From Shouchella patagoniensis (lineage in GTDB: Bacteria; Bacillota; Bacilli; Bacillales; Bacillaceae_D): 64,000 bases of DNA. The position numbers and the translations under genes were made by a program. Location of the stretch: contig NZ_KV917377.1 of NCBI RefSeq assembly GCF_002019705.1, positions 1,052,565 to 1,116,564 on the forward strand, in the 5' to 3' direction. The notes under the pieces are model-generated. The model was given only the letters and a program-made list of their open reading frames with translations, searched no databases and was not told where the DNA came from. Each line of letters begins with the position of its first letter. Position 1 is the stretch's first letter. Positions 6,764-33,392 of the stretch are shown here, in pieces.

Positions 6764-9053
6764 TATATAACTGTCTCGGTATGTGATTAATCCATCGTGA
6801 TGCATGACCTGATGAAAAAAGAACAAGTGTGTGCATCGCCCTCGTACATGCTGTATATAAGTGATGCCTCTCTTGATCTGTTGAATATTGACTATCCGAC
6901 GCATCAAACACGATCACTGCATCAAACTCGATTCCTTTTGCTAAGTAAACAGGTAAGACGACAGCCCCTTCATTATACTCATGATGATCTTTCGCGACAA
7001 GTTGAATATCAATCCACTCACTCAATCGAGCATGGGCATCAGCAGCTTCGTTAGCTGTCTTTGTAATGACAGCTAACGTTGAAACACCTGACTCTAATAA
7101 TGTTTCGATCTTATTTTTCATTGGTTCAATCATGCTTGCACGATTCGTACACTCTACTAAAACTGGACTTGTTCCTTCTCTTTCAAAAGGCTCAACTACA
7201 TTTGGATCAACTAGCAATTCACGCGCGAACTTCATAATTGGTTCGGTAGATCGATAACTTTTTCTAAATACAATCTTTGTGGTTGTTTCTTCAGTATCAC
7301 TCAAGTCCATTAAGACTGGATCATTTTTCGAATGAGCGTAAAGTGCCTGACTACTATCCCCTACAATTGTATATTTTGCAGCTGGGTAGAGCATTTTCAA
7401 ATACATCAGTTGGAAATAAGAATAATCTTGTGCCTCATCAATAAATATATGTTTAATTGAACGATCCACACGCAACCCTTTTATTCGATCTTGCAAATAC
7501 AAAAAAGGTGTCGCATCCTCATGAGGGATCCGCCCATTGTTTATTTCATTCATGGAAAATAAGGCTGCTGCGGCAAACCCTTCCGTTTCCTCATGACACG
7601 AATCAAACAAGAACTGTTCATATAACCTTTCCGCATCAACAAACGAATAAGACTTCACTCTTCTTTTTAAAGGCATAAAAGCAGCGCGAGTAATTTGCTT
7701 GGCGAGGTTTTGAAATTGCTGTTCTTCCTCATTAAATACGTCTTCATTGGGATGTTCAGCCAGTATTTCGTGGTGAGCAGCAAGCAATGTTTCTTTATCA
7801 AGTAACTCTCGCGTTTCTTCTACCCACTTGCTCGAACGCTCTTTTCCCTCGTGTTTAGCTAGTTCTTTCAACAGCCATTCCGCTGTTAGTCTTAATCGAT
7901 TTTGCAAGGAAATCGTATGGTCTAAACAATAAAAATACGTTTGCGTATCTTCTTTTGATAAAATCGTTTCATTACGAAAACGAATATCTTTAAAAGGAAC
8001 TCCACCTGTTTCTAAACCATTTATGAATTGATCCATCTTCTCTTTAAAAGCCATACTAGACTTAGTGGAAATACTTACTAACCGGGTACGATACAACTCA
8101 TCATTGTTTGCTTGAAGCATATACTCTAACTGTTCAAAACCATCCTCAACCATATATGTTTTACTTAAACGTTTGAAGAGGTATCCACGAAACGTTAACT
8201 GGATCATATTTTCCTCACCTAATTCTGGTAGGACGGTTGACACATAATTTGAAAACAATTCATTTGGTGAAAATAAAATCAATTGATTTGCATCAAGTTG
8301 CTCTCGATGTCGAAAAAGCAAATATGCAGCTCTTTGCATCGCGACAGATGTTTTTCCACTTCCAGCAACTCCTTGAACAATTAAAAAACGACTATTCTCA
8401 TTTCGAATTGCTTGATTTTGTTCTTTTTGTATGGTTGAAACAATCGTTTTCATGTTGGTTGAAGCTTCGTTACTTAGTGCTTCTTTTAAGCGGTCATCAC
8501 CTATTGCAAGAGAGGTATCAAATAATGCTTTTAACTCGCCTCTACGAAAAACATACTGTCTTTTTCCAACCAACTCCCCTTTAACCGTTCCAACTGGCGC
8601 TTCATAAGAAACTGGCCCAACTTCGGAGTCATAATACACACTGGATATCGGCGCGCGCCAATCATAGATTAGAAATTCGCTATCCGTTTCATCCATTAAA
8701 GAAGCCAAACCGATGTATAGCGCATCTGGGGTGTCTGCTCCTTTTTCCTTCATATCGATTCGACCAAAATATGGCGAGTCAGCTAATCGCCTAAGTGTGC
8801 GCATTTGCTTTTTCATTAACTCGCTGCTTCTCTCACGCTCGTTAAGTAACTCCGCTTGCTGTTTTATACTTGAGATCGTCTCTTGCGCATCTTCAGTATT
8901 GGAAAAGTTCATCGTTACATTATCCCAAAACGTTTCTTTCAATTCCATTTCATCGCCAGAAACGCCCTCCAGTTGGTCTTTTAGCATTGCTTGTTTAGTC
9001 CGAATAAACGCATGGATAAAAGCCGCTCGTTCGTATTCATATTGCAAGGGCAC
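6744..9053 (-). CDS. helD: RNA polymerase recycling helicase-like factor HelD
   Basis: 769 residues, close to the 774 of B. subtilis HelD, a superfamily 1 ATPase that releases stalled RNA polymerase from DNA. It has an N-terminal coiled-coil arm (about 1-95), the typical DWRAPISSVYYD segment (131-142), Walker A GVAGSGKT (228-235), Walker B IFIDEAQDYS and a C-terminal helicase motif (VYLAKGIEFDAVIVFD). The start is GTG 9053 or TTG 9047; the latter has better spacing from GAGGAA. Monocistronic. Confidence 0.92.
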   Translation of the reverse strand: MPLQYEYERAAFIHAFIRTKQAMLKDQLEGVSGDEMELKETFWDNVTMNFSNTEDAQETISSIKQQAELLNERERSSELMKKQMRTLRRLADSPYFGRIDMKEKGADTPDALYIGLASLMDETDSEFLIYDWRAPISSVYYDSEVGPVSYEAPVGTVKGELVGKRQYVFRRGELKALFDTSLAIGDDRLKEALSNEASTNMKTIVSTIQKEQNQAIRNENSRFLIVQGVAGSGKTSVAMQRAAYLLFRHREQLDANQLILFSPNELFSNYVSTVLPELGEENMIQLTFRGYLFKRLSKTYMVEDGFEQLEYMLQANNDELYRTRLVSISTKSSMAFKEKMDQFINGLETGGVPFKDIRFRNETILSKEDTQTYFYCLDHTISLQNRLRLTAEWLLKELAKHEGKERSSKWVEETRELLDKETLLAAHHEILAEHPNEDVFNEEEQQFQNLAKQITRAAFMPLKRRVKSYSFVDAERLYEQFLFDSCHEETEGFAAAALFSMNEINNGRIPHEDATPFLYLQDRIKGLRVDRSIKHIFIDEAQDYSYFQLMYLKMLYPAAKYTIVGDSSQALYAHSKNDPVLMDLSDTEETTTKIVFRKSYRSTEPIMKFARELLVDPNVVEPFEREGTSPVLVECTNRASMIEPMKNKIETLLESGVSTLAVITKTANEAADAHARLSEWIDIQLVAKDHHEYNEGAVVLPVYLAKGIEFDAVIVFDASDSQYSTDQERHHLYTACTRAMHTLVLFSSGHASRWINHIPRQLYTKQALS

Positions 9054-13423: not shown

Positions 13424-14515
13424 TTATGAGCGTTTATAGAAAGGTGTTTTCACGACTTTTGCAAGAACACGCTTTCCGCGAATATCTACTTCTATTTCAG
13501 TTCCAAGTACACTAAATTCAGCGTCTATTAAAACAAGCCCCACGTTTCGACCAAGTGTAGGGGATTGTGTCCCTGTAGTGACAAAACCCACTTGATTGTC
13601 ACCAACATAAACCACATAATCCGTTCGAGGAATGCCACGTCCAATCATTTCAATTCCGACTAACTTTCGTGATGCCCCTTCTTCTTTCTGTCTTTTCAAT
13701 ACACGTTTTCCAATAAAATCTTTTTCTTTATCCACCTTTACAGCAAAGCCTATGCCCGCCTCAATTGGACTAATATCACGACTTAATTCTTGACCGTATA
13801 AAGCGAGCTTCGCTTCAAAACGAAGTGTATCCCTTGCCCCAAGTCCACATGGAAGTAATCCAAATGGCTCACCAGCTTGCAAAATAGCTGCCCAAAGTCG
13901 GCTTGCTAGATGAGCTTCCACATACAACTCAAAACCATCTTCACCTGTATAGCCTGTCCGAGATGCAAATACTGGGAATGAAGCTATTTCCACATTTTCT
14001 TGAAAACGAAATGGTCGTATTTCCGCCAGATTTGTTGATGTAAGTGTTTGAAGCAAGTCTATTGCTTTTGGACCTTGAACAGCAAGAAGAGCAGTTTCCT
14101 CTGACTGATCTGTTAGTGTTAACTCACCTGTTACATGCTCTTTAATCCAAGCAATGTCAGAATCAATATTAGCTGCATTTAAAACAAGCAGATAGGATGT
14201 TTCCGAACGCCGATAAACAATTAAATCATCGACCGTTCCACCATCTTCCGTACACATTGCATTATATTGCGCTTGGTTATCGCTCAATTTCGACAAATCG
14301 TTCGTCAACAACATCTGTAAATTCTCTAACGCATCTTTTCCTTCTACAAGTAATTCACCCATATGTGATACATCAAATAACCCCGCAGCATTTCGAACAG
14401 CTTCGTGTTCATTTTTTATACCTGAAAAAGAAACAGGCATTTCCCAACCACCAAAATCTACAGTTTTTGCAGACTGCTTGTAGTCATTAAATAATGGAGT
14501 ACGTTTTAGTGCCAT
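13424..14515 (-). CDS. gcvT: Aminomethyltransferase (T-protein)
   Basis: Releases ammonia from aminomethyl-GcvH and forms 5,10-methylene-tetrahydrofolate. 363 residues. Conserved folate-site features are visible: [33 protein letters not shown] and [13 protein letters not shown], with the catalytic Asp in the NDL/DDL region. The C-terminal barrel ends [13 protein letters not shown]. First gene of gcvT-gcvPA-gcvPB, 33 bases downstream of the riboswitch terminator. GcvH is not in the window. Confidence 0.97.
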
Positions 14516-19804: not shown

Positions 19805-20078
19805 AATTGCTTTCGACTTTTTTCACCACACTTTCTCTACAATATTCTTTAATCGTTTTATCAGACGTGTTGCTCCAACCGGTTTCGTCACCTCGTACGT
19901 AAAAAGCATTTCTTTTTTCTTCTAATTGGAACAAAACTTGTTGTTCTTCATGCAATTTGCCACGCTCTTGAAAAACCCACATATAAAGCGGCAGAACAAA
20001 CGAAACAACTAAACTGATCAAGCATAGACTAATTAGTGATTCCATCATAATAAATCCTTTACAATTCTCGATAAACAA
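19779..20078 (-). CDS. comGE: Competence minor pseudopilin ComGE
   Basis: 99 residues from TTG 20078, preceded by AAAGGGGAGAA. A longer frame reaches 20165 but has no ribosome site and would put a long tail before the pilin helix. The helix is CKGFIMMESLISLCLISLVVSFVLPLY, with the cleavage-site glycine about residue 8 and conserved Glu near +5. Overlaps comGD by 20 bases. Assigned by order and pilin N-terminus, since ComGE sequences diverge fast. Confidence 0.78.
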   Translation of the reverse strand: MFIENCKGFIMMESLISLCLISLVVSFVLPLYMWVFQERGKLHEEQQVLFQLEEKRNAFYVRGDETGWSNTSDKTIKEYCRESVVKKVESNCVYVFAGK

Positions 20079-20511
20079 TTCTCCCCTTTCCGATTTGCAC
20101 AGAAAAACGCATATGCAAATGGTCAGTGGACACTTTCCAAGATCCAGTTTTTTGCGGATGGCCATTTGACAAGAAAGCTACCTCACTTATATCCATCGTA
20201 ATTGGTGTAACTGTAATTTCGATCGGATAGTCAAATCGTAGTTGTTCCCTGCCTCCATAAAACAAGAGTAATTCATTGTGTTCAAATAAAATGGTCACTT
20301 TTTTCCCTTGTGACATTGAGAGATGTTGCGCGAAGACAAGATCATTACGAAGTTTCTCAATTGTAGCTTTTTCATCTGTTAAATTGTGGTTTGGTGTGAC
20401 AAAAAAGGTAGGAAGTAATAAAAGAATGGAGAGTAAACTGAGGCTAAAAAGCATTTCCGTTAACGTGAATCCATTATTGTCCTTGAGCAACAATAACAAC
20501 TTCTTTTCCAA
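20059..20511 (-). CDS. comGD: Competence minor pseudopilin ComGD
   Basis: About 150 residues, starting with a TTG (20511) or one of several in-frame TTG codons just after it, inside the comGC end. Prepilin motif NNGFTLTEMLFSLSLLSILLLL with cleavage after G14 of the longest form and the usual Glu at +5. The soluble domain contains the ComGD-like GKKVTILFEHNELLLFYGG segment. Minor pilin of the DNA-uptake machine. Confidence 0.82.
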   Translation of the reverse strand: MEKKLLLLLKDNNGFTLTEMLFSLSLLSILLLLPTFFVTPNHNLTDEKATIEKLRNDLVFAQHLSMSQGKKVTILFEHNELLLFYGGREQLRFDYPIEITVTPITMDISEVAFLSNGHPQKTGSWKVSTDHLHMRFSVQIGKGRIVYREL

Positions 20512-20791
20512 CTAATTCGAGGTTTTTTCCTGCGGCACATGTAATTTGATCTACATACCCATCTTGAACTAAAGTTTCAAGATTACGTGGCGTATTACCG
20601 TGTTCTGCTTCATAGGCCGCCACTTGTGTTTGAACAAGTTTTTTGGTTGCTTCACAACTTTTATCGCCCGCTATGTCTGTATTTTTAGACATATTCGGCA
20701 ATGCGATCAGTAACAGAACTGAGATAATCATTAATACAACAAGCATCTCAATTAACGTAAACCCTTCTTCATTTTTAAATCGTTTTTTCAT
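20474..20791 (-). CDS. comGC: Major competence pseudopilin ComGC
   Basis: 105 residues. Prepilin signal NEEGFTLIEMLVVLMIISVLLLIALPNM, to be cut after G10 by ComC. Two cysteines (SCEATKK and ITCAAGK) match the intramolecular disulfide known in ComGC. First gene of the downstream half of the split comG locus; ATG 20791 follows AAGAGGTGAG. Because a terminator and other genes separate it from comGB, it needs its own promoter in 20792-20988. Confidence 0.95.
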   Translation of the reverse strand: MKKRFKNEEGFTLIEMLVVLMIISVLLLIALPNMSKNTDIAGDKSCEATKKLVQTQVAAYEAEHGNTPRNLETLVQDGYVDQITCAAGKNLELVGKEVVIVAQGQ

Positions 20792-21280: not shown

Positions 21281-21363
21281 TGCGGGTGAAGGGACTTGAA
21301 CCCCCACGTCATAAAGACACTAGATCCTAAGTCTAGCGCGTCTGCCAATTCCGCCACACCCGC
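21281..21363 (-). tRNA. tRNA-Leu(TAG)
   Basis: Minus-strand cloverleaf with acceptor GCGGGTG/CACCCGC, anticodon loop CTTAGGA and a long variable arm as expected for leucine. CCA is not encoded. Last tRNA of the cluster. Confidence 0.95.
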
Positions 21364-21381
21364 GTATTCAATTTATAAATA

Positions 21382-21472
21382 TGGCGGAGAAGGAGGGATT
21401 TGAACCCTCGCGCCGCTCACGCGACCTACACCCTTAGCAGGGGCGCCCCTTCAGCCACTTGGGTACTTCTCC
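21382..21472 (-). tRNA. tRNA-Ser(GCT)
   Basis: Acceptor GGAGAAG/CTTCTCC, anticodon loop CTGCTAA, long variable arm typical of serine; CCA encoded. Confidence 0.96.
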
Positions 21473-21497
21473 TATTTAAAACATTTACGTAAGGTGA

Positions 21498-21571
<74 letters not shown>

Positions 21572-21586
21572 TTACTTAAATGGTAA

Positions 21587-21657
21587 AGCGGGTGATGAGA
21601 ATCGAACTCACATCATCAGCTTGGAAGGCTGAGGTTTTACCACTAAACTACACCCGC
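21587..21657 (-). tRNA. tRNA-Gly(TCC)
   Basis: Acceptor GCGGGTG/CATCACCCGC region, anticodon loop CTTCCAA, discriminator U as usual for glycine. CCA is not encoded. Confidence 0.96.
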
Positions 21658-21691
21658 ATAATTTTTTTAAAATAGTTCACTATTTAAAGAG

Positions 21692-21763
21692 AGCGGAAGA
21701 CGGGATTCGAACCCGCGACCCCCACCTTGGCAAGGTGATGTTCTACCACTGAACTACTTCCGC
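21692..21763 (-). tRNA. tRNA-Gly(GCC)
   Basis: Acceptor GCGGAAG/CTTCCGC, anticodon loop TTGCCAA, discriminator U. CCA is not encoded. Confidence 0.96.
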
Positions 21764-21765
21764 AA

Positions 21766-21840
21766 TGGCTGGGCTACCTGGGATCGAACCAGGGAATGAC
21801 GGAATCAAAATCCGTTGCCTTACCGCTTGGCTATAGCCCA
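21766..21840 (-). tRNA. tRNA-Gln(TTG)
   Basis: Acceptor TGGGCTA/TAGCCCA, anticodon TTG, CCA encoded. Only two bases separate it from tRNA-Gly(GCC). Confidence 0.95.
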
Positions 21841-21844
21841 ATAT

Positions 21845-21921
<77 letters not shown>

Positions 21922-22001
21922 ACGTTTTAATACTTTCTTATGTAAAAAACACTTTAACAAAAACAACAATAAAACTCACTAATGACGTGTTTTTAAAATG
22001 A

Positions 22002-22094
22002 TGGCGGAGGAAGAGGGATTCGAACCCCCGCGCGGTGTAACCCGCCTGTCGGTTTTCAAGACCGATCCCTTCAGCCGAACTTGGGTATTCCTCC
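22002..22094 (-). tRNA. tRNA-Ser(TGA)
   Basis: Acceptor GGAGGAA/TTCCTCC, anticodon loop CTTGAAA, long variable arm; CCA encoded. Confidence 0.96.
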
Positions 22095-22102
22095 GAATAA
22101 AG

Positions 22103-22175
22103 TGGAGCCTAGCGGGATCGAACCGCTGACCTCCTGCGTGCAAAGCAGGCGCTCTCCCAGCTGAGCTAAGGCCCC
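22103..22175 (-). tRNA. tRNA-Ala(TGC)
   Basis: Acceptor GGGGCCT/AGGCTCC with one G-U pair, anticodon loop TTTGCAC. CCA is not encoded. First tRNA after the promoter. Confidence 0.96.
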
Positions 22176-22357: not shown

Positions 22358-23398
22358 TCATTGAAGAGAGCCGATCATTTCAAACATCGGCAACATTACA
22401 ACAAGGAATAATAGAAAAACAAATCCCCCAATACAAATCAACAAAATTGGTTGGAGCCAAACAACCCCCTTTTGCAGCTTGTCCTCCATTTCTTGAAAAA
22501 GCCATATGCTGTATTGTTGCAAGTCACCAGATACGGTACCTGTCCGCATTCCATTTTCAATAACAATGGAAAGTTCATTTAAATAATATTCTTGTGATTG
22601 CATATAAGCAACTAATGATTCACCAGTCGCTAAGGCCTTTTTCATCATTGATGCCTCTGCTTGAAAAAAGCGAAGAAGACTTTGATTCTCGAATATCGTT
22701 AAGGCTTGTTGGAAGGTCATTCCTGTCTCAAGTAGACGCCCTAGCTGGAGGGAAAAGTAATACGAAATTAATTGTTGTACAAACACTTTTGACCGATTCC
22801 ATTTCAACAGAAACACAATTTTATCATGAGGTGACGTTTCTTTAAAATGCTTAAATAAGAAAAATGCACCACACGTGCCGATGGCAAGGATAGCAAGACA
22901 AATATAAGGAAATACCTCTAAAAATTGAAAGAACATTTTCGTAAGTAACGGAGGAGATTGCTGCATTGTAACAAACAATGCTTGAAAGTGAGGAACGATA
23001 AAATGATTCAAAACAATTAAAACGACAACTGTACCCCATAATAAAAACAAGGGGTAGCGCAATAATTTTTGAAACTGTTTTTTTGTCGCAAGTCGCTTTT
23101 GAGCAAGAGAAGCAGCTAATACGAGTCCTTCTGCTAACTCTCCTTGCTCTTCATAGAAATAAACATACGAACGAATCTCATTTGGTAAGTTCAAACAATC
23201 CAAACTTGCACATAGAGTCGCTCCATCTCTTAATTGTACCCGTATAAGCTCGATTTGATTTTTCAAGTAATCTGAACTATAAACTTGCAAGAAAGAGAGT
23301 GCATTTTCCATATGATATCCTTTTTGTAGAAGATCACCTAAGCGCTTTATAAACCTTATGCTTTCTTCTGAATTCATACTTTTATGTTTTTTTCTCAT
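22358..23398 (-). CDS. comGB: Competence pilus assembly membrane protein ComGB
   Basis: 346 residues, GspF/PilC-type polytopic protein of the pseudopilus assembly platform. Two T2SSF repeats: the first with FIKRLGDLLQKGYHMENAL and RDGATLCASL, the second with YYFSLQLGRLLETGMTFQQAL and ENGMRTGTVSGDL. Three membrane helices (LFLLWGTVVVLIVLNHF, PYICLAILAIGTCGAFFLF, PILLICIGGFVFLLFLVVMLP). Eight bases after comGA. What follows downstream is the tRNA cluster, not comGC, which is unusual. Confidence 0.94.
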   Translation of the reverse strand: MRKKHKSMNSEESIRFIKRLGDLLQKGYHMENALSFLQVYSSDYLKNQIELIRVQLRDGATLCASLDCLNLPNEIRSYVYFYEEQGELAEGLVLAASLAQKRLATKKQFQKLLRYPLFLLWGTVVVLIVLNHFIVPHFQALFVTMQQSPPLLTKMFFQFLEVFPYICLAILAIGTCGAFFLFKHFKETSPHDKIVFLLKWNRSKVFVQQLISYYFSLQLGRLLETGMTFQQALTIFENQSLLRFFQAEASMMKKALATGESLVAYMQSQEYYLNELSIVIENGMRTGTVSGDLQQYSIWLFQEMEDKLQKGVVWLQPILLICIGGFVFLLFLVVMLPMFEMIGSLQ

Positions 23399-24632: not shown

Positions 24633-26918
24633 ATGAAAACCGCACTTTATTTAAATAAACCGCTTTTTTTGCCTAAGCTCTCTCGGGATAAATGGCACAA
24701 GCTCTACTTAGCAAGCAAACAGGGTAATGTTTTCTGTATCCATTGTGGCAATCCTGTCAAAATGAATTTTGGCATTCACGAGATGCCAGAATTTAGCCAT
24801 ACAACTGCATCACATCTTGATTGCCATCAAGAAGTAATGGCGTATGAAGACGCTTTGCAATCAGAACAAGAAACAGCGGCAACTACAGTTCATGGGTTTA
24901 GGCTTCCTTCTAGACAAACCATAAAAACAAGTAGTAATGAGTCAACATGGAAAGAACCGGTACCTTTTGAACCTTTGCCCCCTTATAAACCAAGAAAAAA
25001 CCTTGTTTCCATTAAGCACCCGTATCGGCAAAAACTTAAACAAGCTAATCTTCACTTCGATGAGAGTCAGTGGGAGGCTGTTCAACATAAGGACGGACCA
25101 TTGCTTTTATTAGCCGGAGCCGGCAGTGGCAAAACAAGAGTATTGACCGCACGAGCTGCTTATATGCTCTGCGAAGAAAACATCCCTGTTAATAAAATGG
25201 CTTTGGTTACATTTACTGCGAAGGCAGCGCATGAAATGAAAGACCGCATGAGCTTATATCCAGGTGTAACAGATCAAATGTCTCGGCAACTTTTAGTTCG
25301 AACTTTCCACAGCTTGTTTGTCAAAATGCTCAACCATTTTGACCCAAACAAATGGCACATGTCGAACTTACTTAAATGGCCCTCACAACTAGTAAAAGAA
25401 GCTGGTCTTGAAATGAACCTCGATGAAAGTGAGTTCGCATATGACCATGCACTTACTCAAATTAGTTGGTGGAAAAATCAAATGATTTCTCCTGATAACA
25501 CTTCACCTAAAGACCCATTTGAAGAAAAAGCTGCCTCCCTCTATAAAAGGTATGAAGAAAAACGAGAAACAGTTGGATTATTTGATTTTGATGATATGCT
25601 TACAGGTTGTTTTATTATGTTACAAGAAAACCCCTCCTTATTAAGCCGCTATCAGGAACGTTTTGCTTATTTATCAGTGGACGAGTTCCAGGATATCAAT
25701 AAAATTCAGTTTGAAATTATAAAAATGCTTGCCCACCCTCAGCAAAATGTGTGTGTTGTTGGGGACGATGATCAATCCATATACGCTTTTAGAGGGAGTG
25801 ATCCATATTATATTCAATCGTTTAAAGAACGTTTCTCTAAAGCAAAGATCATTAGCTTAGTTGAAAATTATCGTTCTTCTCACCAAATCATTGCTGGAGC
25901 CAATCAAGTCATTGAAAAAAATATAAAAAGAATCCCTAAACAATTAATTGCTCAACGTTCCTCTGCCCATACTCCTTTTTTCTTCTTTCCATATAATGAA
26001 GAGGAAGAAGCAACAATGATTGTTGAAGAAATGAGCAACCTAATAGAAAACGGTGCCACACCCGATTCATTCGCAATTCTTTACCGTACCAACGTTAGTG
26101 TGAGGGCCATCGTTGAACGCCTAATCGATTCACGCCTACCTTTTTCAATCGATCAAGACCTAGATTGTTTTTATGAGCGAAAAATCATACGGAAGGCATT
26201 GTCCTTTTTACGTATTGGATTAAATGAAGAAAAACAGGATATTATGAGAGAATTGTTACAAGCGCTTTTTGTTAAGCAGGAAAAAATAACTGAAATGCTC
26301 GCTATTCAACGGCAAGAAGCCTGTACTTTGTTAGAGTCACTCTCACTACTTAGTGGACTCGCTCCTTTTCAGCAAAAAAAAGTAAAAGCTCTCCCTGCCG
26401 AGTGCAGGAAACTACAAAAGCTCAGTCCAGAAAAAGCACTAGAAACAATTGAACAAGAGCTAGGCTTTAGAGATACTGTTAAAAAACAAGGACAAGAAGG
26501 AAATAAAATGGACAAAGGAAGCGACGACTTCCGGCAATTAAAAGTAGTTGCTGGACAGTACGAAACGGTACAAGCTTTTTTGGAACATGTTGATCATATT
26601 ATCGCAAATCAATCCGCTTTAAGACGCAGCCCAAAAGAAAGTAATGCGATACAACTTATGACGATTCATCGCTCAAAAGGATTAGAATATAAACATGTAT
26701 TTATAGCCGGCTGTGTAGAAAGAGGCTTGCCTCATGAATATGCATTAGATGCACTTCGTGAAGGAGATGAAGACCCTATGCAAGAAGAACGACGTCTTAT
26801 GTACGTCGCTATGACGCGTGCCAAGGAACGCTTATCCATTTCCATACCAATTCATTATCGTGGCAGAAGAAGTAACCCTTCACGTTTTCTTCGCCCCATA
26901 CTAAAAAGCGGCTTCTAA
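24633..26918 (+). CDS. yjcD: UvrD/Rep-type DNA helicase with N-terminal zinc motif (YjcD-like)
   Basis: 761 residues, close to B. subtilis YjcD. Walker A LLAGAGSGKTRVL (about 161-173), motif Ia TFTAKAAHEMKDR, Walker B LSVDEFQDIN, motif III VVGDDDQSIYAFRG, motif IV VENYRSS, and C-terminal MTIHRSKGLEYKHVFIAG and RRLMYVAMTRAKERL: a complete SF1A 3'-5' helicase. The first 75 residues carry CIHCG...PEFSH...DCHQE, a zinc-finger/nuclease-like start resembling CoiA. AAAGGAG precedes ATG 24633. It marks the switch from yqh/comG to yjc/yjb gene order. Confidence 0.88.
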   Translation: MKTALYLNKPLFLPKLSRDKWHKLYLASKQGNVFCIHCGNPVKMNFGIHEMPEFSHTTASHLDCHQEVMAYEDALQSEQETAATTVHGFRLPSRQTIKTSSNESTWKEPVPFEPLPPYKPRKNLVSIKHPYRQKLKQANLHFDESQWEAVQHKDGPLLLLAGAGSGKTRVLTARAAYMLCEENIPVNKMALVTFTAKAAHEMKDRMSLYPGVTDQMSRQLLVRTFHSLFVKMLNHFDPNKWHMSNLLKWPSQLVKEAGLEMNLDESEFAYDHALTQISWWKNQMISPDNTSPKDPFEEKAASLYKRYEEKRETVGLFDFDDMLTGCFIMLQENPSLLSRYQERFAYLSVDEFQDINKIQFEIIKMLAHPQQNVCVVGDDDQSIYAFRGSDPYYIQSFKERFSKAKIISLVENYRSSHQIIAGANQVIEKNIKRIPKQLIAQRSSAHTPFFFFPYNEEEEATMIVEEMSNLIENGATPDSFAILYRTNVSVRAIVERLIDSRLPFSIDQDLDCFYERKIIRKALSFLRIGLNEEKQDIMRELLQALFVKQEKITEMLAIQRQEACTLLESLSLLSGLAPFQQKKVKALPAECRKLQKLSPEKALETIEQELGFRDTVKKQGQEGNKMDKGSDDFRQLKVVAGQYETVQAFLEHVDHIIANQSALRRSPKESNAIQLMTIHRSKGLEYKHVFIAGCVERGLPHEYALDALREGDEDPMQEERRLMYVAMTRAKERLSISIPIHYRGRRSNPSRFLRPILKSGF

Positions 26919-27020: not shown

Positions 27021-28397
27021 ATGAAAACGAGTATTGTTATGCTAACTTATAATCAACTAGAGCTTACACAGCAATGTTTAACCAGTTTATTTCTTCATAC
27101 AGATATGGAAGAAACTGAATTAATTATTATTGATAACGGTTCAACAGATGGAACTAGAGATTATTTACAGAAGGATGAGCGTATTAAGCTGGTGTTAAAT
27201 GACCAAAACGTAGGTTTTGCAAAAGGTTGTAACCAAGGAATTGAATTAGCAAGTGGAGATGAAATTGTTTTTCTTAACAATGATACGATTCTTACTGAAA
27301 ATTGGCTTGCTTCTATGCAACACGCAATGTATTCTGACAAAGCAATTGGAATGGTTGGTCCAATGAGTAACTATGTTAGCGGAAACCAACTTATAGAAAA
27401 TCCCTACACATCTCTTGACCAATTACCAGCCTACGCTAAAAAACGCGCTAAAGAGTATAAAGGTCAATTACGTTTTGTTCTCAGACTGGTCGGCTTTTGC
27501 TTACTGGTCAAACGTGAGGTAATAGAGAAGATTGGTCCTTTTGACGAACGTTATGAAGTTGGCTCATTTGAAGATGATGACTTTTGTCTTCGAGGTGTTT
27601 TAAATGGATTTAAATTAGTTATTGCGCTTGATGCGCATGTTCACCACCATGGACACGCTACTTTTACCGGCAGTCCCGAAATCAATTTTAACCAAATCTA
27701 CTGGGAAAATAGAGCTCGATTCACTGAAAAATGGCGTACCGATGTCATGTATTTTATGCACCCCCGGCCAGAACTTGTTAACCTAGTTCCTAAAGATGCT
27801 AAACAGGTACTTGATATAGGCTGTGGTGCCGGGGCATCTGGACTTGAACTAATCAACCGCCAAGGCTGTCGTTTAACGGGAATTGAAGGGAATTCAGAAA
27901 TGGCACATATTGCGAAAACATATTATGAAGATGTCCTAGTGATCAATTTAGATGAGGAAAATCCGGAATTTGAGCAAGATTTCTTTGACACCTTATTGTT
28001 TGCAGATGTCCTAGAGCATCTAAAAGATCCTTGGACCATTGTTCAGCATTACAGTAAGTTTTTAAAGCCTGGAGGTTCGATTATAGCAAGTATCCCGAAT
28101 ATTACACATGCCGAAGCATTGCTACCTATGTTGATGGGACGTTTTGATTACGCAGATGCTGGAATTTTAGACCGGACTCACTTGCGCTTTTTTACGCCAC
28201 AGACCATTTTAACGCTTTTCCCTGAGAGTCAATTCACGGTTAGACAGCAGTTCTCTACTAATGTCCCTATACCTGCAGCGACGCGTACTTTTTTCTATGA
28301 GGTAAGTCTATTAGGCAAGAAGTTCGGATTCGATCTAAGCCGTCTTGGTGATGATGTAAATGTGTACCAATCAATTATCCGTCTCAAGAAGCGCTAA
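27021..28397 (+). CDS. Glycosyltransferase family 2 fused to SAM methyltransferase
   Basis: 458 residues, two domains. Residues 1-245 are a GT-A family 2 domain: SIVMLTYNQLELT, DNGSTDGT (39-46), the metal-site FLNNDTIL (85-91) and FDERYEVGSFEDDDFCLR (174-191). Residues 250-458 are a class I methyltransferase with motif I LDIGCGAGASG (264-274), LFADVLEHLKDPW and KPGGSIIASIPN. Such fusions build methylated surface sugars. Sporulation-linked glycosylation is inferred from locus context (yjcD to yjcA). It overlaps the converging next gene by 27 bases. Confidence 0.85.
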   Translation: MKTSIVMLTYNQLELTQQCLTSLFLHTDMEETELIIIDNGSTDGTRDYLQKDERIKLVLNDQNVGFAKGCNQGIELASGDEIVFLNNDTILTENWLASMQHAMYSDKAIGMVGPMSNYVSGNQLIENPYTSLDQLPAYAKKRAKEYKGQLRFVLRLVGFCLLVKREVIEKIGPFDERYEVGSFEDDDFCLRGVLNGFKLVIALDAHVHHHGHATFTGSPEINFNQIYWENRARFTEKWRTDVMYFMHPRPELVNLVPKDAKQVLDIGCGAGASGLELINRQGCRLTGIEGNSEMAHIAKTYYEDVLVINLDEENPEFEQDFFDTLLFADVLEHLKDPWTIVQHYSKFLKPGGSIIASIPNITHAEALLPMLMGRFDYADAGILDRTHLRFFTPQTILTLFPESQFTVRQQFSTNVPIPAATRTFFYEVSLLGKKFGFDLSRLGDDVNVYQSIIRLKKR

Positions 28398-29459
28398 TCT
28401 CTTGGTAAAATAAGTGCGATTATAGGCGACACGCTCATCATTAGGAAGATATTTACCAGCAAGTTCGTTGTGCTGGTTCCCTTTTTCTGTTAAGCCCATT
28501 TTATCGTAACAAACAGCAAGTTGAAGATGAGGAATCCAGGTTTCACAAGCAATATTTTGAAAATAACCGACCGTTTCTTTATTCACTATTGCTTGCTCAT
28601 ACCAATAGGAAGCTTCTGGAAACAACTGTTTCTCAATAAAGATGTGCCCAATTCGACAGCATGTTTCAGGTTTTGGCTTTCCGTACTCAAGGGCACGAAA
28701 CGACCAATCACGCGCTTTTTCTACTATTCCTAAATTGCTGTAGCAATCCGCCAACTTATTGCATGCACGAATAACATCCTCTGACCAACCTTTTTCTGTT
28801 TGTATAAATTGAATATAATACTTGATTGCCTCTTCAAACTTACTATGGTCCGTTAATTCATTTGCGTAATAGAGTAAATCTCGTGGAGAGAACGTTTCAT
28901 TGTTACGTTTCATTTGTTCATAGATCTCTAAATTTCTTGTCGAATCATGGCCGTCATCCAACGATAAATGAGTGACAGCAATGTCACTATGCTCAAGATT
29001 TCCGAAGACTTCTAAGTACTCATGAACGGCACCATGCCATTTAAATTGATTTTCTGCTTTTACTAATCGAAAACGACGTATACTTGATGTTACGCCCCCG
29101 TTCCCATCAAAGCCTAGATGATAGTCCATAGATATAGCATCTGTTTTGGGGGTGATTTTCTTTTTTAATTCCTTCAGTTTTTTCGCATCATCCGCTTTAA
29201 AAATATCATCTGCATCTAACCAAAGAATAAACGTTTTCGTAGCATAAGAAAATGCCTTATTACGAGCTTTAGCAAAATGGTTTACCCATTTAAAATCATA
29301 GATCTTCTCCGTAAAACGAGCTGCAATCTCTTTTGTTTTATCAGTGGAACCCGTATCCAAAATAATGATTTCATCAACTACATTCTCTACACTTTTTAAA
29401 CACCGTTCCAATACGGCTTCTTCGTTTTTTACAATCATGCATAAACTAATTTCAACCAC
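28371..29459 (-). CDS. Glycosyltransferase family 2 with TPR-like C-terminus
   Basis: 362 residues from GTG 29459, after GAGGAGGTGG. N-terminal GT2 domain: ISLCMIVKNEEAVLERCL, DTGSTDKT, and the DXD motif ILWLDADDIF (about 90-99). After about residue 190 come TPR-like helical repeats (YYANELTDHSKFEEAIKYY, ACNKLADCYSNLGIVEKA, LAVCYDKMGLTEKG). This architecture is common in SunS-like and cell-surface glycosyltransferases; the acceptor is unknown. It faces the GT2-methyltransferase gene and probably works in the same pathway. Confidence 0.85.
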   Translation of the reverse strand: MVEISLCMIVKNEEAVLERCLKSVENVVDEIIILDTGSTDKTKEIAARFTEKIYDFKWVNHFAKARNKAFSYATKTFILWLDADDIFKADDAKKLKELKKKITPKTDAISMDYHLGFDGNGGVTSSIRRFRLVKAENQFKWHGAVHEYLEVFGNLEHSDIAVTHLSLDDGHDSTRNLEIYEQMKRNNETFSPRDLLYYANELTDHSKFEEAIKYYIQFIQTEKGWSEDVIRACNKLADCYSNLGIVEKARDWSFRALEYGKPKPETCCRIGHIFIEKQLFPEASYWYEQAIVNKETVGYFQNIACETWIPHLQLAVCYDKMGLTEKGNQHNELAGKYLPNDERVAYNRTYFTKRLALLETDN

Positions 29460-29478
29460 TTGCGCCACCTCCTCGAGA

Positions 29479-29506
29479 TAACGTATGCCCAAATGGAAAG
29501 CGTCGT
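29479..29506 (-). promoter_or_regulatory. Possible sigma-K promoter of the GT2-TPR gene
   Basis: Minus strand AC, 17 bases, CATACGTTA, matching the sigma-K pattern AC-N16/17-CATANNNTA. It lies very close to the ribosome site, so the leader would be very short. Confidence 0.4.
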
Positions 29507-29595
29507 GCCTGTCATTTGAAACACTTTAAAGTAAACTTCATCTTTTTTTGTTTCTACTAATAATCTTGTTAGGATCGATCAGGCCCTTCTCAATC

Positions 29596-30165
29596 ATGAA
29601 AACCGACTTCCTTCATATACTTATAGAAAACGCTAAGCTGAAAGGACTGGGATTTGTGAATCCATCAACAACACGTTTAACAACTGTCCAGCTTCAACAA
29701 CGCTTAATTCACGCACAAGCAGAAACAGCAAAATTAAAAAAAGAACTTGAGCGATATAAAAATGACTATCATTATAATTTAATTGATGAGTTAACAATTA
29801 AAAATGAAGAACTTCAAAAAGAATTGCTTGATTTACAACATAAGAATGAACAAATGGAAAACAGATTGACTTTATCAATTACTAATCCTAAGCAAGAAGA
29901 GATTCCTATAGAAAAATCAGATCAACAGCATGAACAGATTTCTATAGAAAAATCAGATCAACAGCATGAACAGATTTCTATAGAAAGATCAGATCAACAG
30001 CCTGAACAACAAACTCAAAAGAAAAGCGATCCAATTGAAGAGTCTGTTTTCTTCACAACACAATCGAGTTCTAATAAGGAAATAAAAAGTCAATCGGTTG
30101 CACAATCAAAACAAGACGCACCTAATTGGTTTTCACGCAGTTTAAAATCTAGAACAAAAAAATAA
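29596..30165 (+). CDS. Coiled-coil protein with 12-residue repeats
   Basis: 189 residues from ATG 29596; an in-frame TTG at 29548 would add 16 hydrophobic residues, and neither start has a good ribosome site. Residues about 30-95 form a coiled coil (LQQRLIHAQAETAKLKKELERY...). Next come nearly three copies of IEKSDQQHEQIS and a Gln/Ser-rich, basic end (NWFSRSLKSRTKK). No family recognised. It occupies the region where B. subtilis has spore crust genes, so a spore-surface role is possible but only inferred. Confidence 0.6.
   Translation: MKTDFLHILIENAKLKGLGFVNPSTTRLTTVQLQQRLIHAQAETAKLKKELERYKNDYHYNLIDELTIKNEELQKELLDLQHKNEQMENRLTLSITNPKQEEIPIEKSDQQHEQISIEKSDQQHEQISIERSDQQPEQQTQKKSDPIEESVFFTTQSSSNKEIKSQSVAQSKQDAPNWFSRSLKSRTKK
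29905..30010 (+). repeat. 36-bp tandem repeat inside the coiled-coil gene
   Basis: Units at 29905-29940 and 29941-29976 are almost identical (start CTATAGAAAAATCAG), and a third diverged copy follows. Each codes for 12 residues. Copy number may vary between strains. Confidence 0.9.
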
Positions 30166-30203
30166 CTTCTATATTGTCTCCTTACTACTAATACTCACCT
30201 CAA

Positions 30204-30246
30204 AAACCCCGTTCGACTTGCCTTTAGGCAAGTCGAACGGGGTCTG
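30204..30246. terminator. Strong bidirectional terminator
   Basis: Perfect 16-bp stem CCCCGTTCGACTTGCC with loop TTTA, flanked by A- and T-rich ends, between converging genes. Confidence 0.88.
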
Positions 30247-30248
30247 TT

Positions 30249-30365
30249 TTACCTTAATTTCTTTTTCCCACAACAGCAACCAGTTTTATTTTTATTTCCT
30301 GATTCTACTTTGGTTGTAGGACGCTTTGCTTCAAAGTAGCCTGGCCGTGATTTTTTATGTGGCAT
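30249..30365 (-). CDS. 38-residue CCC-motif peptide
   Basis: ATG 30365 follows GGAGAG at about 9 bases and the frame runs to TAA at 30249. The product is very basic (MPHKKSRPGYFEAKRP...) and ends with GCCCGKKKLR, three adjacent cysteines. No family recognised. A strong terminator follows directly, and a CATAATGTA element sits upstream, both supporting a real gene. Adjacent cysteines would suit cross-linking in a spore layer, which is inference. Confidence 0.62.
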   Translation of the reverse strand: MPHKKSRPGYFEAKRPTTKVESGNKNKTGCCCGKKKLR

Positions 30366-30406
30366 TTAGCATCGCTCTCCTTTTTTTAAAGAGGATCTTT
30401 CATCTA

Positions 30407-30415
30407 TACATTATG
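30407..30415 (-). promoter_or_regulatory. Sigma-K-like -10 element before the CCC peptide
   Basis: Minus strand CATAATGTA fits CATANNNTA and lies 42 bases before the ATG. No clear AC at -35 was seen, so support is partial. Confidence 0.35.
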
Positions 30416-30454
30416 CATCTAAGCAGAAAAAGGACCTAAACAAAAATTAGTCGC

Positions 30455-30481
30455 ACATATTTAGACAGAAGTCATACTATA
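30455..30481 (+). promoter_or_regulatory. Sigma-K-like promoter of the 13-cysteine gene
   Basis: AC, 16 bases, CATACTATA: both elements and the spacing agree with the mother-cell sigma-K pattern. Start of transcription would be near 30489, about 70 bases before the ATG. Confidence 0.6.
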
Positions 30482-30559
30482 CAGTAGTCCGAACACCTAT
30501 TAGCAGCGTTAAAAAGAGAAGAGCTTGCTAATCGGTCAAAATTAGAAGGAGGTTCCTCC

Positions 30560-31267
30560 ATGAGTCACGACCACGATAAACACAGTGTTTGCATTAGTGT
30601 ACCCAAAGTATTTGATTGGGTAACACGACAAGTAGATTTACCAACTCTAAGCTTTAGAGAACCTGAATTAACAGCTTTATTCCCATGTACGCAACAACCT
30701 CCAGGTCCAGTTACACTTTGTCAGTTTTTATCAGCTGTACCAAATTTTCAAACGGTATGCCGCGTTATCGAAAGTTCTCTTCTGACAAACGAGGTAACAA
30801 ATCCTTTTGGACGTACTGAAGTAGAAATATCTTTGCCTAATGGTGAAGATGTTTGCTTGGAAAAAGTAAAAGTTCTAGCAAAAGGCCAACTTGAAATTGA
30901 TATTCTAGATGAACAAGGCAGCTTAATTTGCACCTCTGATCCAATTGAGTTTGCAACTATTCAAACATTCTATTTATGCGCTCCAGAAAGCACTTCAATC
31001 GATGCCTTTATTTCAGCCGGACAATGCGACGCGGAAATTGTGTGCGATTCTACATTTGCACAACTTGATATTTCATTCTCTTTCTGCATGGATGTACATG
31101 TATTCGCAGATGTACGTCTTGAAATTGAAGCAGCCTATTGCAAACCGCGCCATGAGTTCCCGGTTAGTGATATTATCTGCCGCGAAAACAAATTCCCGCC
31201 TACTTGCCCAGTTGTGTTTCCAGGCAAGGGCTTTGGTAAGAAACCAAAAGTAACTTCTGAAGGATAA
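30560..31267 (+). CDS. 13-cysteine protein, candidate spore outer-layer component
   Basis: 235 residues, 13 cysteines spread along the chain, no signal peptide, no membrane helix. It begins MSHDHDKHSVCISVPKVFDW; the VPKVFDWVTRQVDLP start looks like a conserved family, but I cannot name it. The middle appears beta-rich with alternating hydrophobic residues. AGAAGGAGG lies before ATG 30560. Cysteine content, the sigma-K-like promoter and the position of the crust locus all suggest a cross-linked spore-surface protein, a functional analogue of CotY/CotZ without evident sequence similarity. The structural role is inference. Confidence 0.7.
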   Translation: MSHDHDKHSVCISVPKVFDWVTRQVDLPTLSFREPELTALFPCTQQPPGPVTLCQFLSAVPNFQTVCRVIESSLLTNEVTNPFGRTEVEISLPNGEDVCLEKVKVLAKGQLEIDILDEQGSLICTSDPIEFATIQTFYLCAPESTSIDAFISAGQCDAEIVCDSTFAQLDISFSFCMDVHVFADVRLEIEAAYCKPRHEFPVSDIICRENKFPPTCPVVFPGKGFGKKPKVTSEG

Positions 31268-31272
31268 TCATC

Positions 31273-31303
31273 TGGACCGCTTCTCAAAGCGGTCCGTTTT
31301 TTT
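31273..31303 (+). terminator. Terminator of the 13-cysteine gene
   Basis: GGACCGCTT-CTC-AAAGCGGTCC followed by T7. Confidence 0.9.
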
Positions 31304-31325
31304 CTTCTTAATTAGTTCAGTTGTA

Positions 31326-31334
31326 CATAGAATA
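31326..31334 (+). promoter_or_regulatory. Sigma-K-like -10 element before 31369 gene
   Basis: CATAGAATA fits CATANNNTA, 35 bases before the ATG. No AC is present at the exact -35 spacing, so this is tentative. Confidence 0.35.
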
Positions 31335-31368
31335 AATTAATGACCTAATGTAAAGCGAGGCGATATCA

Positions 31369-32106
31369 ATGGGGCAAAACCAGGCAAACACAGCAGATAA
31401 ACAACTTATTCAATTAAAACAGAAGCTTCTTCATTTCCGCTCAGAAGTTATAAAACAGGAACGGCTTTTGATAGAACAGAACAAAAAGCTACTACAGCAA
31501 GATAACATTATTGGTAGTCTAACGGACCGACTTGAAGAGCTAGTGCAAAGGCCAACACCAGTCATGGAAGATGTACCTGTCGTAACCCCTCCTGAAAAAA
31601 CAGAAGTATTACCGACAGGACCAATCATTGATTCTTATTTTTCTTATTCCGTCATGGCTCCCATTGACACAAATGAGAATGAACCTTTTCTAATTAAAGG
31701 TCACTTTATTATCGATAATAAAGGAGACCAATCTTTACATGATCCGATTATTTGCTTCACATTTAATAAACCAGAATTCGCTAATTTATCTGGTCGGATT
31801 AAACGGTCCAAAAACGTTAAAAAAGCAAGCGAATATTCTGTATCTCGAGACGGTGTAACCGAAGCTTGGTCTTTTCTTGAAGAAAAAGCAGATCATCAAG
31901 CTAAAAAAACAGGTCAATTCTGGCTACAACCACCTGTAAATATTATTCCTCCACATTCTTCGATTGCTTTTTCTGACTTTGAAATTCTCTTGCATTTAAA
32001 AGCAGGTCAAGAGTCACTTTCTTTATCCGTCAGTGGTTTTGTTTATGGGACAGAGTTATCAGAAGGGCACTCAGCCTTAAATTCGATTACGTTAACTTTA
32101 GCTTAA
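31369..32106 (+). CDS. Coiled-coil plus beta-domain protein of spore-like locus
   Basis: 245 residues. Residues about 8-60 are a coiled coil (LIQLKQKLLHFRSEVIKQERLLIEQ region), then a proline-rich linker (RPTPVMEDVPVVTPPEK). Residues 85-245 look like an all-beta sandwich (FLIKGHFIIDNKGDQSLHDPIICFTF, PPHSSIAFSDFEILLHL). No signal peptide. Family not recognised. Its N-terminal coil resembles that of the 29596 gene in style, so the two may assemble together. GCGAGG lies before ATG 31369. Confidence 0.7.
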   Translation: MGQNQANTADKQLIQLKQKLLHFRSEVIKQERLLIEQNKKLLQQDNIIGSLTDRLEELVQRPTPVMEDVPVVTPPEKTEVLPTGPIIDSYFSYSVMAPIDTNENEPFLIKGHFIIDNKGDQSLHDPIICFTFNKPEFANLSGRIKRSKNVKKASEYSVSRDGVTEAWSFLEEKADHQAKKTGQFWLQPPVNIIPPHSSIAFSDFEILLHLKAGQESLSLSVSGFVYGTELSEGHSALNSITLTLA

Positions 32107-32121
32107 GTAGAAAGGAACAAT

Positions 32122-32154
32122 AAAGCAGCCTCAATTTAAACTGAGGCTGCTTTT
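32122..32154. terminator. Bidirectional terminator before yjcA-like gene
   Basis: AAAGCAGCCTCA / TGAGGCTGCTTTT hairpin between converging genes. Confidence 0.88.
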
Positions 32155-32491
32155 AATTATGCTTTCTCAAAAATGATTCGATAATAGAGGTCCCGTAAGC
32201 AATACTTAAGACTAGAATGATTGGCATAAAGACAGTCGGCCAAAAAAAGAAACCACAATACAGGATTAAGGACGCCCAAATTCCAGTGCACCAATAACAC
32301 GATAAAAGTTCACCTATGAATCGACGTATTCCAGTCCCTTTGGGGTGTGGATAAAGAATATCTCCACCTTCTTCTTCTTTCCATTCCAAGAAAGGTTTTC
32401 GTAACCATTCCATTATGTCATCGCTTACCAGTAACCTCGTGAGCCTACCTGCGGCTAAAACTAGTAATAGCCACTCAAACCCTGCCAACAA
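32153..32491 (-). CDS. yjcA: DUF1360 membrane protein (YjcA-like)
   Basis: 112 residues from TTG 32491, after GGGAGGGGGG. Helices at LLLVLAAGRLTRLLV, ELLSCYWCTGIWASLILYCG and MPIILVLSIAYGTSI, with the DUF1360 hallmark CYWCTGIW and the RLTRLLVSDD start. B. subtilis YjcA is a sporulation-expressed DUF1360 protein encoded beside the cotVWXYZ crust genes; YngL is a paralogue, so the exact orthology is not certain. Function unknown. Confidence 0.78.
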   Translation of the reverse strand: MLAGFEWLLLVLAAGRLTRLLVSDDIMEWLRKPFLEWKEEEGGDILYPHPKGTGIRRFIGELLSCYWCTGIWASLILYCGFFFWPTVFMPIILVLSIAYGTSIIESFLRKHN

Positions 32492-32606: not shown

Positions 32607-33392
32607 CTATGATAATGATAAGATATTATATCCACCATCTACATGTAATATTTCGCCAGTAATTCCACGAGCTAAATCACTAGCTAAAAACAGAGCTGTA
32701 TCGCCTACTTCTTCTTGTGTTGTTGTTTTTCGAAGCGGAGCTCGCTCTTCAATCTCTTTTAACACATCATTGAATCCACCTATGCCCTTAGCCGCAAGCG
32801 TGCGAATTGGACCAGCCGAAATTGCATTAACGCGAATACCGTCTTTCCCTAAATCGTTTGCTAAATATTTTACACTCGCATCAAGTGCTGCTTTAGCTAC
32901 ACCCATAACGTTATAATTCTTTACGACTCGCTCGCCACCTAAATAGGTCATCGTAATAATGCTCCCTCCATCAGTCATTAACGGACGGGCGGCTTTAGCG
33001 ACTGCCGTCAGGGAATATGCACTTATATTTTGAGCAAGTAAATATCCTTCACGAGTAACATTTAAATACTCTCCTTCTAATTCTTCCTTATTAGCAAAAG
33101 CAATACAATGAGCTAATCCATTAATTGAACCAACCTGGTTTTTTATTTCTGCAAACGTTGCTTCAATTTCTTTATCATCACTAATATCACAAGGAAGAAC
33201 AAGATGTTCCCCATCTAGCGTATCAGCTAATGAACGAACATTCTTCTCGAGCCGCTCCCCGGCATATGTAAAAACCAGTCTTGCCCCCGCTTCAGACAGA
33301 GAACGAGCGATCGCCCAAGCTATACTTCTTTTATTCGCAACACCCATTACAACATATGTACGATTCGATAAATCAATTGATTTCATTTTCAT
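32607..33392 (-). CDS. fabI: Enoyl-ACP reductase FabI
   Basis: NADH/NADPH-dependent last reduction of each fatty-acid elongation cycle. 261 residues (or 259 from the second ATG). Rossmann start VVMGVANKRSIAWAIARSL, the active-site tyrosine and lysine in YNVMGVAK, and ISAGPIRTLAAKGI. It is the target class of triclosan-like inhibitors. Monocistronic with a FapR-type operator 12 bases upstream. In B. subtilis it also borders the crust genes. Confidence 0.97.
   Translation of the reverse strand: MKMKSIDLSNRTYVVMGVANKRSIAWAIARSLSEAGARLVFTYAGERLEKNVRSLADTLDGEHLVLPCDISDDKEIEATFAEIKNQVGSINGLAHCIAFANKEELEGEYLNVTREGYLLAQNISAYSLTAVAKAARPLMTDGGSIITMTYLGGERVVKNYNVMGVAKAALDASVKYLANDLGKDGIRVNAISAGPIRTLAAKGIGGFNDVLKEIEERAPLRKTTTQEEVGDTALFLASDLARGITGEILHVDGGYNILSLS

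Follow-up and report, generated by a model that had tools for sequence, protein, structure and literature searches.

A BMQ_0737-family protein and a probable outer spore layer locus between yjcD and fabI in Shouchella patagoniensis

What does Shouchella patagoniensis encode at the chromosomal position that in Bacillus subtilis, by the gene order from yjcD to fabI, belongs to the spore crust? The question arises from a window of 64,000 nucleotides (the whole stretch of DNA analysed; contig NZ_KV917377.1, positions 1,052,565 to 1,116,564), where an interval is bounded on the left by a helicase gene and on the right by a DUF1360 gene, presumably yjcD and yjcA, with fabI beyond the latter. An earlier note, made from the sequence alone, had claimed six reading frames here and described them as an unfamiliar set for an alternative, glycosylated and disulfide-linked spore surface layer. 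All six are present and in the order claimed: a GT2 glycosyltransferase fused to a methyltransferase (GT2-methyltransferase), a GT2 glycosyltransferase with TPR repeats (GT2-TPR), a coiled-coil protein (CC), a 38-residue microprotein, a cysteine-rich protein (BMQ, the 30560 product) and a protein with an N-terminal coiled coil and a further C-terminal domain (CC-beta). Each frame was matched in all five of the genus-mate loci L036–L040 and, because of these matches and the third-codon-position bias of the 38-residue frame, the six are genuine genes and not chance frames. The products of the interval probably form the outermost layer of the S. patagoniensis spore and would be made late in the mother cell.

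BMQ, the central protein, matches NF052457 (BMQ_0737 morphogenetic spore coat protein) with E = 1.7e-62 and a score of 211 bits, the cut-off being 71, and the match is full-length (profile positions 1–199 of 199), so that the cut-off is exceeded over the whole profile. Matches above the family cut-off were found in 66 of 100 genomes, one of them the window's own; the 14 control genomes, B. subtilis among them, gave none. The word unfamiliar is therefore wrong for this protein, which belongs to a named and common spore-coat family. The earlier note had also proposed a profile search of this product, naming a match to a non-sporulation family as evidence against a spore role; the family that was matched is a sporulation family. 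The best-known member is BMQ_0737 of Bacillus (Priestia) megaterium QM B1551, to which the window's protein is linked by the full-length family match. There BMQ_0737 is a protein of the spore outer layer, and its GFP fusion is among the outermost spore proteins (PMC4656864). B. megaterium is the only species for which this location and a need for the protein in outer-layer integrity are known. The window's BMQ sits in the yjcD–fabI slot together with CC-beta and the microprotein.

The promoter of BMQ points in the same direction. Upstream regions were scanned with the consensus letters of the sigma-K promoter, the maximum score being 18. The spacer of 14–16 nt was that given in PMC517825. The loci compared were the window and 40 others, taken from 40 of the 62 genomes (besides the window's own, G000) that were matched by the window's BMQ; counts over these 41 loci favour close relatives because most came from the higher-scoring matches. 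Some loci stop at contig ends, and two near-identical pairs reduce the BMQ proteins to 39 distinct ones. A top-scoring sigma-K-type site, within an aligned block, precedes BMQ in 40 of the 41 loci. None of the 107 upstream regions of six housekeeping control genes scanned alongside reached a score of 17 (fabI 0/20, ppnK 0/20, yjbM 0/15, rluD 0/25, yjcD 0/16 and comGA 0/11), whereas 2 of 35 upstream regions of yjcA did. Three perfect sites occur in the window, and that of BMQ alone is followed, within 150 nt, by a frame of at least 100 amino acids. The sequence of the BMQ promoter fits sigma-K and predicts late expression in the mother cell. A spore role for the 30560 product is well supported, as far as sequence can carry it, because the spore-coat family match and the conserved sigma-K-type promoter coincide. 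The other two perfect matches, at window positions 20004 (+) and 49706 (+), may be due to chance.

In other lineages the same interval holds CotZ. At least one of the markers yjcD, yjcA and fabI (the last recognised by eye rather than by library scan, and used as a query) was found within about 10 kb of BMQ in 37 of the 40 fetched loci. A marker was likewise nearby in 19 of 20 CotZ loci, which represent 20 of 34 CotZ-positive genomes, and none of the 20 contained a BMQ or CC-beta match. The common markers, together with the lack of BMQ from the CotZ loci, indicate a single slot, occupied by CotZ or by BMQ depending on the lineage. No match to CotZ (PF10612) was found in the six products, in the window's genome or in 12 genus mates, and comparison of the BMQ and CotZ profiles gave an hhalign probability of 0.6%, that is, no detectable homology. 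The crust and exosporium builders CotZ, CotY and ExsY thus resemble BMQ in their slot and in cysteine content (9–17 in the 20 CotZ proteins, 13 in BMQ), but differ from it in profile and in that PF10612 is missing from the window's genome. Given the same slot and the lack of homology, it seems that at a single site one cysteine-rich builder of the outer layer has taken the place of another that is not homologous to it. The proposed spore-surface role at the crust position is borne out by the family match, the sigma-K-type promoter, the presence of CotZ in the same interval elsewhere and a Coat_X gene in the interval of the genus mate G011; an alternative surface layer at this position therefore stands, whereas the unfamiliarity of the whole set does not. 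The new points are the slot common to two non-homologous builders, a constant partner (CC-beta) and the microprotein.

CC-beta matched no Pfam or NCBIfam family. Its distribution over the 100 genomes coincides exactly with that of BMQ: the 66 genomes with BMQ have a match and the remaining 34 do not. In 64 of the 66 a BMQ match lies no more than 2.5 kb away, and in 59 CC-beta follows BMQ on the same strand. CC is present in 29 of the 41 loci and contains three 12-residue units, with SDQQ at residues 108, 120 and 132 of its 189-residue reading; its start is probably a GTG codon, because the proteins of relatives start there. A profile of the CC-beta N-terminus matched 20 of the 29 CC frames at E ≤ 1e-3, indicating that the two N-termini are related; at this threshold no other frame of the CC loci was matched, and reversed decoys gave nothing at E ≤ 0.1. 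No mention of CC-beta or of the microprotein was found in the BMQ literature, and no wider literature search was made for either. In Cytobacillus spongiae (L081:3242-5709, NZ_CP089998.1) a 401-residue protein has a CC-beta-like C-terminal domain; beside it are encoded a coiled-coil protein of 402 residues and two glycosyltransferases, with miaB and cotE nearby.

The microprotein is likewise without a Pfam or NCBIfam match. In 28 of the 41 loci a short basic peptide that terminates in CC[CGQ] and at most 13 further residues is encoded divergently to BMQ; such a peptide was found on the strand of BMQ in none of the 41, and in none of 868 control tiles. A separate scan of 624 kb, the window and CotZ intervals included, returned the motif twice, as the window's own copy and as one frame of L124 that is unlike the microprotein family. 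Over seven close pairs of relatives, differences at codon positions 1, 2 and 3 numbered 13, 12 and 117 (142 in all) and, judged from this pattern, the 38-residue CCC peptide is the product of a conserved coding gene. A sigma-K-type site scoring at least 16.5 precedes 18 of the 28 copies. Among the 39 distinct BMQ proteins Cys176 is conserved in 38 and Cys207 in all, and 33 contain at least 10 cysteines. A disulfide network is plausible for the window's BMQ and is no family-wide rule, and we infer from these residues that the layer may be disulfide-linked.

Several observations weigh against the reading of the interval as the locus of the outermost layer. Strict exclusivity of BMQ and CotZ was considered and rejected, as the family profile finds both in 14 of the 100 genomes, BMQ only in 52, CotZ only in 20 and neither in 14 (kinship uncorrected); per taxonomic family, counting any member (n = 47), the figures are 10, 17, 17 and 3, and with the window's BMQ as query at E ≤ 1e-20 the two occur together in just 1 of 100 genomes. 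Displacement is thus not exclusive, and kinship partly explains the pattern, given the genomes that hold both or neither. CotX in the window's genome lies elsewhere (G000:C1:751 kb). In the window, CC, CC-beta and the GT2-methyltransferase gene are without a convincing sigma-K site (conserved CATA blocks lie upstream of the latter two in close relatives), and the microprotein's own site is weak (14.5 of 18). Six of the 39 BMQ orthologues have only 2–7 cysteines, which speaks against a general disulfide role. The AlphaFold2 model of BMQ, built from a six-row alignment, was too poor for use (mean pLDDT 48.7, pTM 0.45), and sequence profiles of BMQ and CC-beta gave no match in the PDB up to E = 5.

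The remote CotX gene, the occurrence of Coat_X in 50 of the 100 genomes and the genomes that hold both or neither of BMQ and CotZ would suit a different account, in which BMQ is just one more outer-coat protein, the outermost layer is built otherwise (for instance by CotX) and the slot is merely a variable sporulation locus. The outermost location of the GFP fusion in B. megaterium argues against it, as does the occupation of one slot by BMQ and CotZ; where a fetched CotZ locus comes from a genome that also carries BMQ (five cases: G045, G056, G066, G069 and G077), CotZ is in the slot and BMQ elsewhere. We regard this account as unlikely.

The Coat_X family (CotX/CotV, PF07552) is found at the BMQ locus in some relatives. 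A Coat_X gene stands beside BMQ in the interval of G011, and six genomes (G004, G009, G010, G011, G051 and G084) have Coat_X at most 2.5 kb from BMQ. CotX/CotV differ from the window's proteins in that CotX is located elsewhere in this genome and BMQ and CC-beta fall outside PF07552, the domain being without a match in any of the six products. In G011 (L044) the Coat_X gene and an unassigned gene for 92 residues lie between CC and BMQ, at 7960-8529 and 8634-8912, and the latter gene has a sigma-K-like site with a score of 16.5.

The set could also be a recent horizontal acquisition, a surface-gene island rather than the ancestral content of the slot in the family, and the strong variation in glycosyltransferase content among genus mates would agree with this. 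The identity of BMQ to the window's protein declines with kinship, from 58–84% in the genus to 27–69% in the family and no more than 50% elsewhere in the order, and the flank is kept in nearly all BMQ loci, as given above; both make such an origin very improbable.

The two glycosyltransferase genes require separate consideration. The nearest solved proteins to the GT2-TPR enzyme are GmaR (E = 9.2e-30, residues 3–153) and SunS (E = 2.2e-18), both of them protein glycosyltransferases, GmaR acting on flagellin. The likeness to both lies in a related GT2 domain; SunS differs in that the GT2-TPR enzyme scores 77 bits against its equivalog profile TIGR04195, far below the cut-off of 350. For the methyltransferase half of the GT2-methyltransferase the nearest structure is 3cc8. 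Both genes are strongly matched only in the window and L036–L040, which makes 6 of 13 Shouchella genomes as judged at the BMQ locus; of the other seven Shouchella loci, L041 and L046 are truncated where a contig stops. L061 contains a 45% identical relative of the GT2-TPR gene, and most loci keep the BMQ core without the two genes. This distribution, the relationship to a flagellin-modifying enzyme and the lack of a convincing sigma-K site at the GT2-methyltransferase gene in the window would be expected if the pair were unrelated to spores, modifying flagellin or capsule as mere neighbours of the BMQ core. Such a role appears doubtful in view of a sigma-K-like site at a fixed distance from the GT2-TPR gene in all six Shouchella loci that carry it (scores 15.5–16.5), and of the further sugar genes that lie on both sides of BMQ in genus-mate intervals, comprising another GT2, an epimerase, a nucleotide-sugar dehydrogenase, a GT4 and a CgeB-like PF13524 gene. 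The PF13524 protein of L040 gave no match in the window's genome, in a search that lacked a control and whose empty answer is uninformative, and the nucleotide-sugar dehydrogenase of L040 found only matches of 26–30% there. From the gene content of these loci, the predicted decoration is variable and the BMQ/CC-beta core constant, and the glycosyltransferase genes are accessory. We infer from the two enzymes that the spore layer may be glycosylated.

If the interval encodes the outermost layer, the following order of events would account for its content. Sigma-K would turn on BMQ, a step with support in the sequence, and the divergent microprotein and the GT2-TPR gene would probably belong to the same regulon; CC-beta, which stands behind a terminator, would need its own promoter. 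By homology, BMQ would assemble at the outer surface of the coat, in the role that CotZ/CotY play in B. subtilis. CC-beta, present wherever BMQ is, may dock the BMQ layer on the coat beneath or link its units, and CC, with its CC-beta-like N-terminal coiled coil, may share this role. The basic, cysteine-ending microprotein could then cross-link the acidic, cysteine-rich BMQ shell through charge and disulfides. Finally, GT2-TPR might add sugar directly to a surface protein, in the manner of GmaR and SunS, and the GT2-methyltransferase might extend or methylate the glycan, both enzymes providing a lineage-specific decoration.

Two further relationships of BMQ were considered and rejected. A resemblance to the SipL/SPOCS domain was not upheld, as BMQ has no PF12673 match up to E = 1 (clostridial members were not compared by profile); PF12673 matches occurred in 2 of 60 genomes, both at proteins other than BMQ. 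Homology to Ena was suggested by a tblastn match annotated 'S-Ena type endospore appendage', but the gene concerned turned out to encode both domains. The BMQ and Ena profiles compare at an hhalign probability of 0.2%, and the Enas domain (PF13157) is found neither in BMQ nor in the window's genome, so that the S-Ena appendages differ from the window's system in both respects. They are connected to it through relatives whose BMQ domain contains, near profile position 35–50, an inserted Ena domain (G048, G093 and G069) and through a P. megaterium plasmid gene that joins the two domains. The combination of Ena and BMQ_0737 domains was seen in L100, L101, L103 and L080:1235-2134. These fusions, all outside the window, would fit BMQ-type proteins as a surface in which appendages are rooted. 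Somewhat tentatively, and with rather less confidence than in the outer-layer role itself, BMQ, CC-beta and the cysteine-ending basic microprotein may be viewed as an outer-shell kit unrelated to CotZ/CotY and housed in the same slot; lineages would have swapped kits and, where there are appendages, the BMQ-type shell protein would carry the Ena that roots the fibre.

Some genomes contain several BMQ domains. G045, G069, G075, G077, G090 and G093 each have 5–8 matches, certain of them arranged in tandem and others lying in frames about 370–900 residues long, an expanded surface-protein family. A BMQ-like frame with 25.5% identity is present on two plasmids, L082 (CP065518.1) and CP031730.1, filed under Stenotrophomonas rhizophila; this is odd for a non-spore-former, and the plasmids are possibly misassigned Bacillota DNA.

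Table 1 Features of the yjcD–fabI interval and its flanks, in window positions.
Feature	Position	Strand	Evidence and remarks
UvrD/Rep-type helicase (yjcD), left flank	24633..26918	+	Pfam; 22/40 BMQ loci, 4/20 CotZ loci
GT2 glycosyltransferase with methyltransferase domain (fusion)	27021..28397	+	PF00535 E = 1.2e-25, PF13489 E = 4.3e-19
GT2 glycosyltransferase with TPR repeats, GmaR/SunS-like	28371..29459 (frame to 29492), probable GTG start 29459	-	Pfam PF00535 and TPR
Sigma-K-like site upstream of the GT2-TPR gene (CACG, 16 nt, CATACGTTA)	29479..29507	-	2/500 shuffles reach score
CC, coiled-coil protein, three 12-residue repeats	29656..30165 (frame open from 29548), probable GTG start 29656	+	
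Terminator-like hairpin between CC and microprotein gene	30206..30243	+	
38-residue basic CCC microprotein, divergent to BMQ	30249..30365	-	
Sigma-K-type promoter of BMQ (CACA, 15 nt, CATACTATA)	30454..30481	+	Perfect; 0/500 shuffles reach score
BMQ, morphogenetic spore coat protein (BMQ_0737 family; 235 residues with 13 Cys)	30560..31267	+	NF052457
Terminator-like hairpin between BMQ and CC-beta	31273..31296	+	
CC-beta, N-terminal coiled coil and C-terminal domain, 245 aa	31369..32106	+	
DUF1360 protein (yjcA), right flank	32153..32491	-	Pfam; 34/40 BMQ loci, 13/20 CotZ loci
FabI-type enoyl-ACP reductase, right flank	32607..33392	-	Recognised by eye; 30/40 BMQ loci, 18/20 CotZ loci

Elsewhere in the window, nine tRNA genes (21281-22175, minus strand) lie inside an apparent comG operon, between genes that are presumably comGB (22358-23398) and comGC (20474-20791); a tRNA cluster beyond comGA was seen in 8 of the 10 relatives' loci scanned. 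A glycine riboswitch aptamer (Rfam RF00504; 14672-14769, minus strand) is located upstream of a gcvT-like gene (13424-14515).

For the bacilli as a group, the occupation of the yjcD–fabI slot by CotZ in some lineages and by BMQ with its partners in others suggests that they have exchanged shell-building genes at one chromosomal site.

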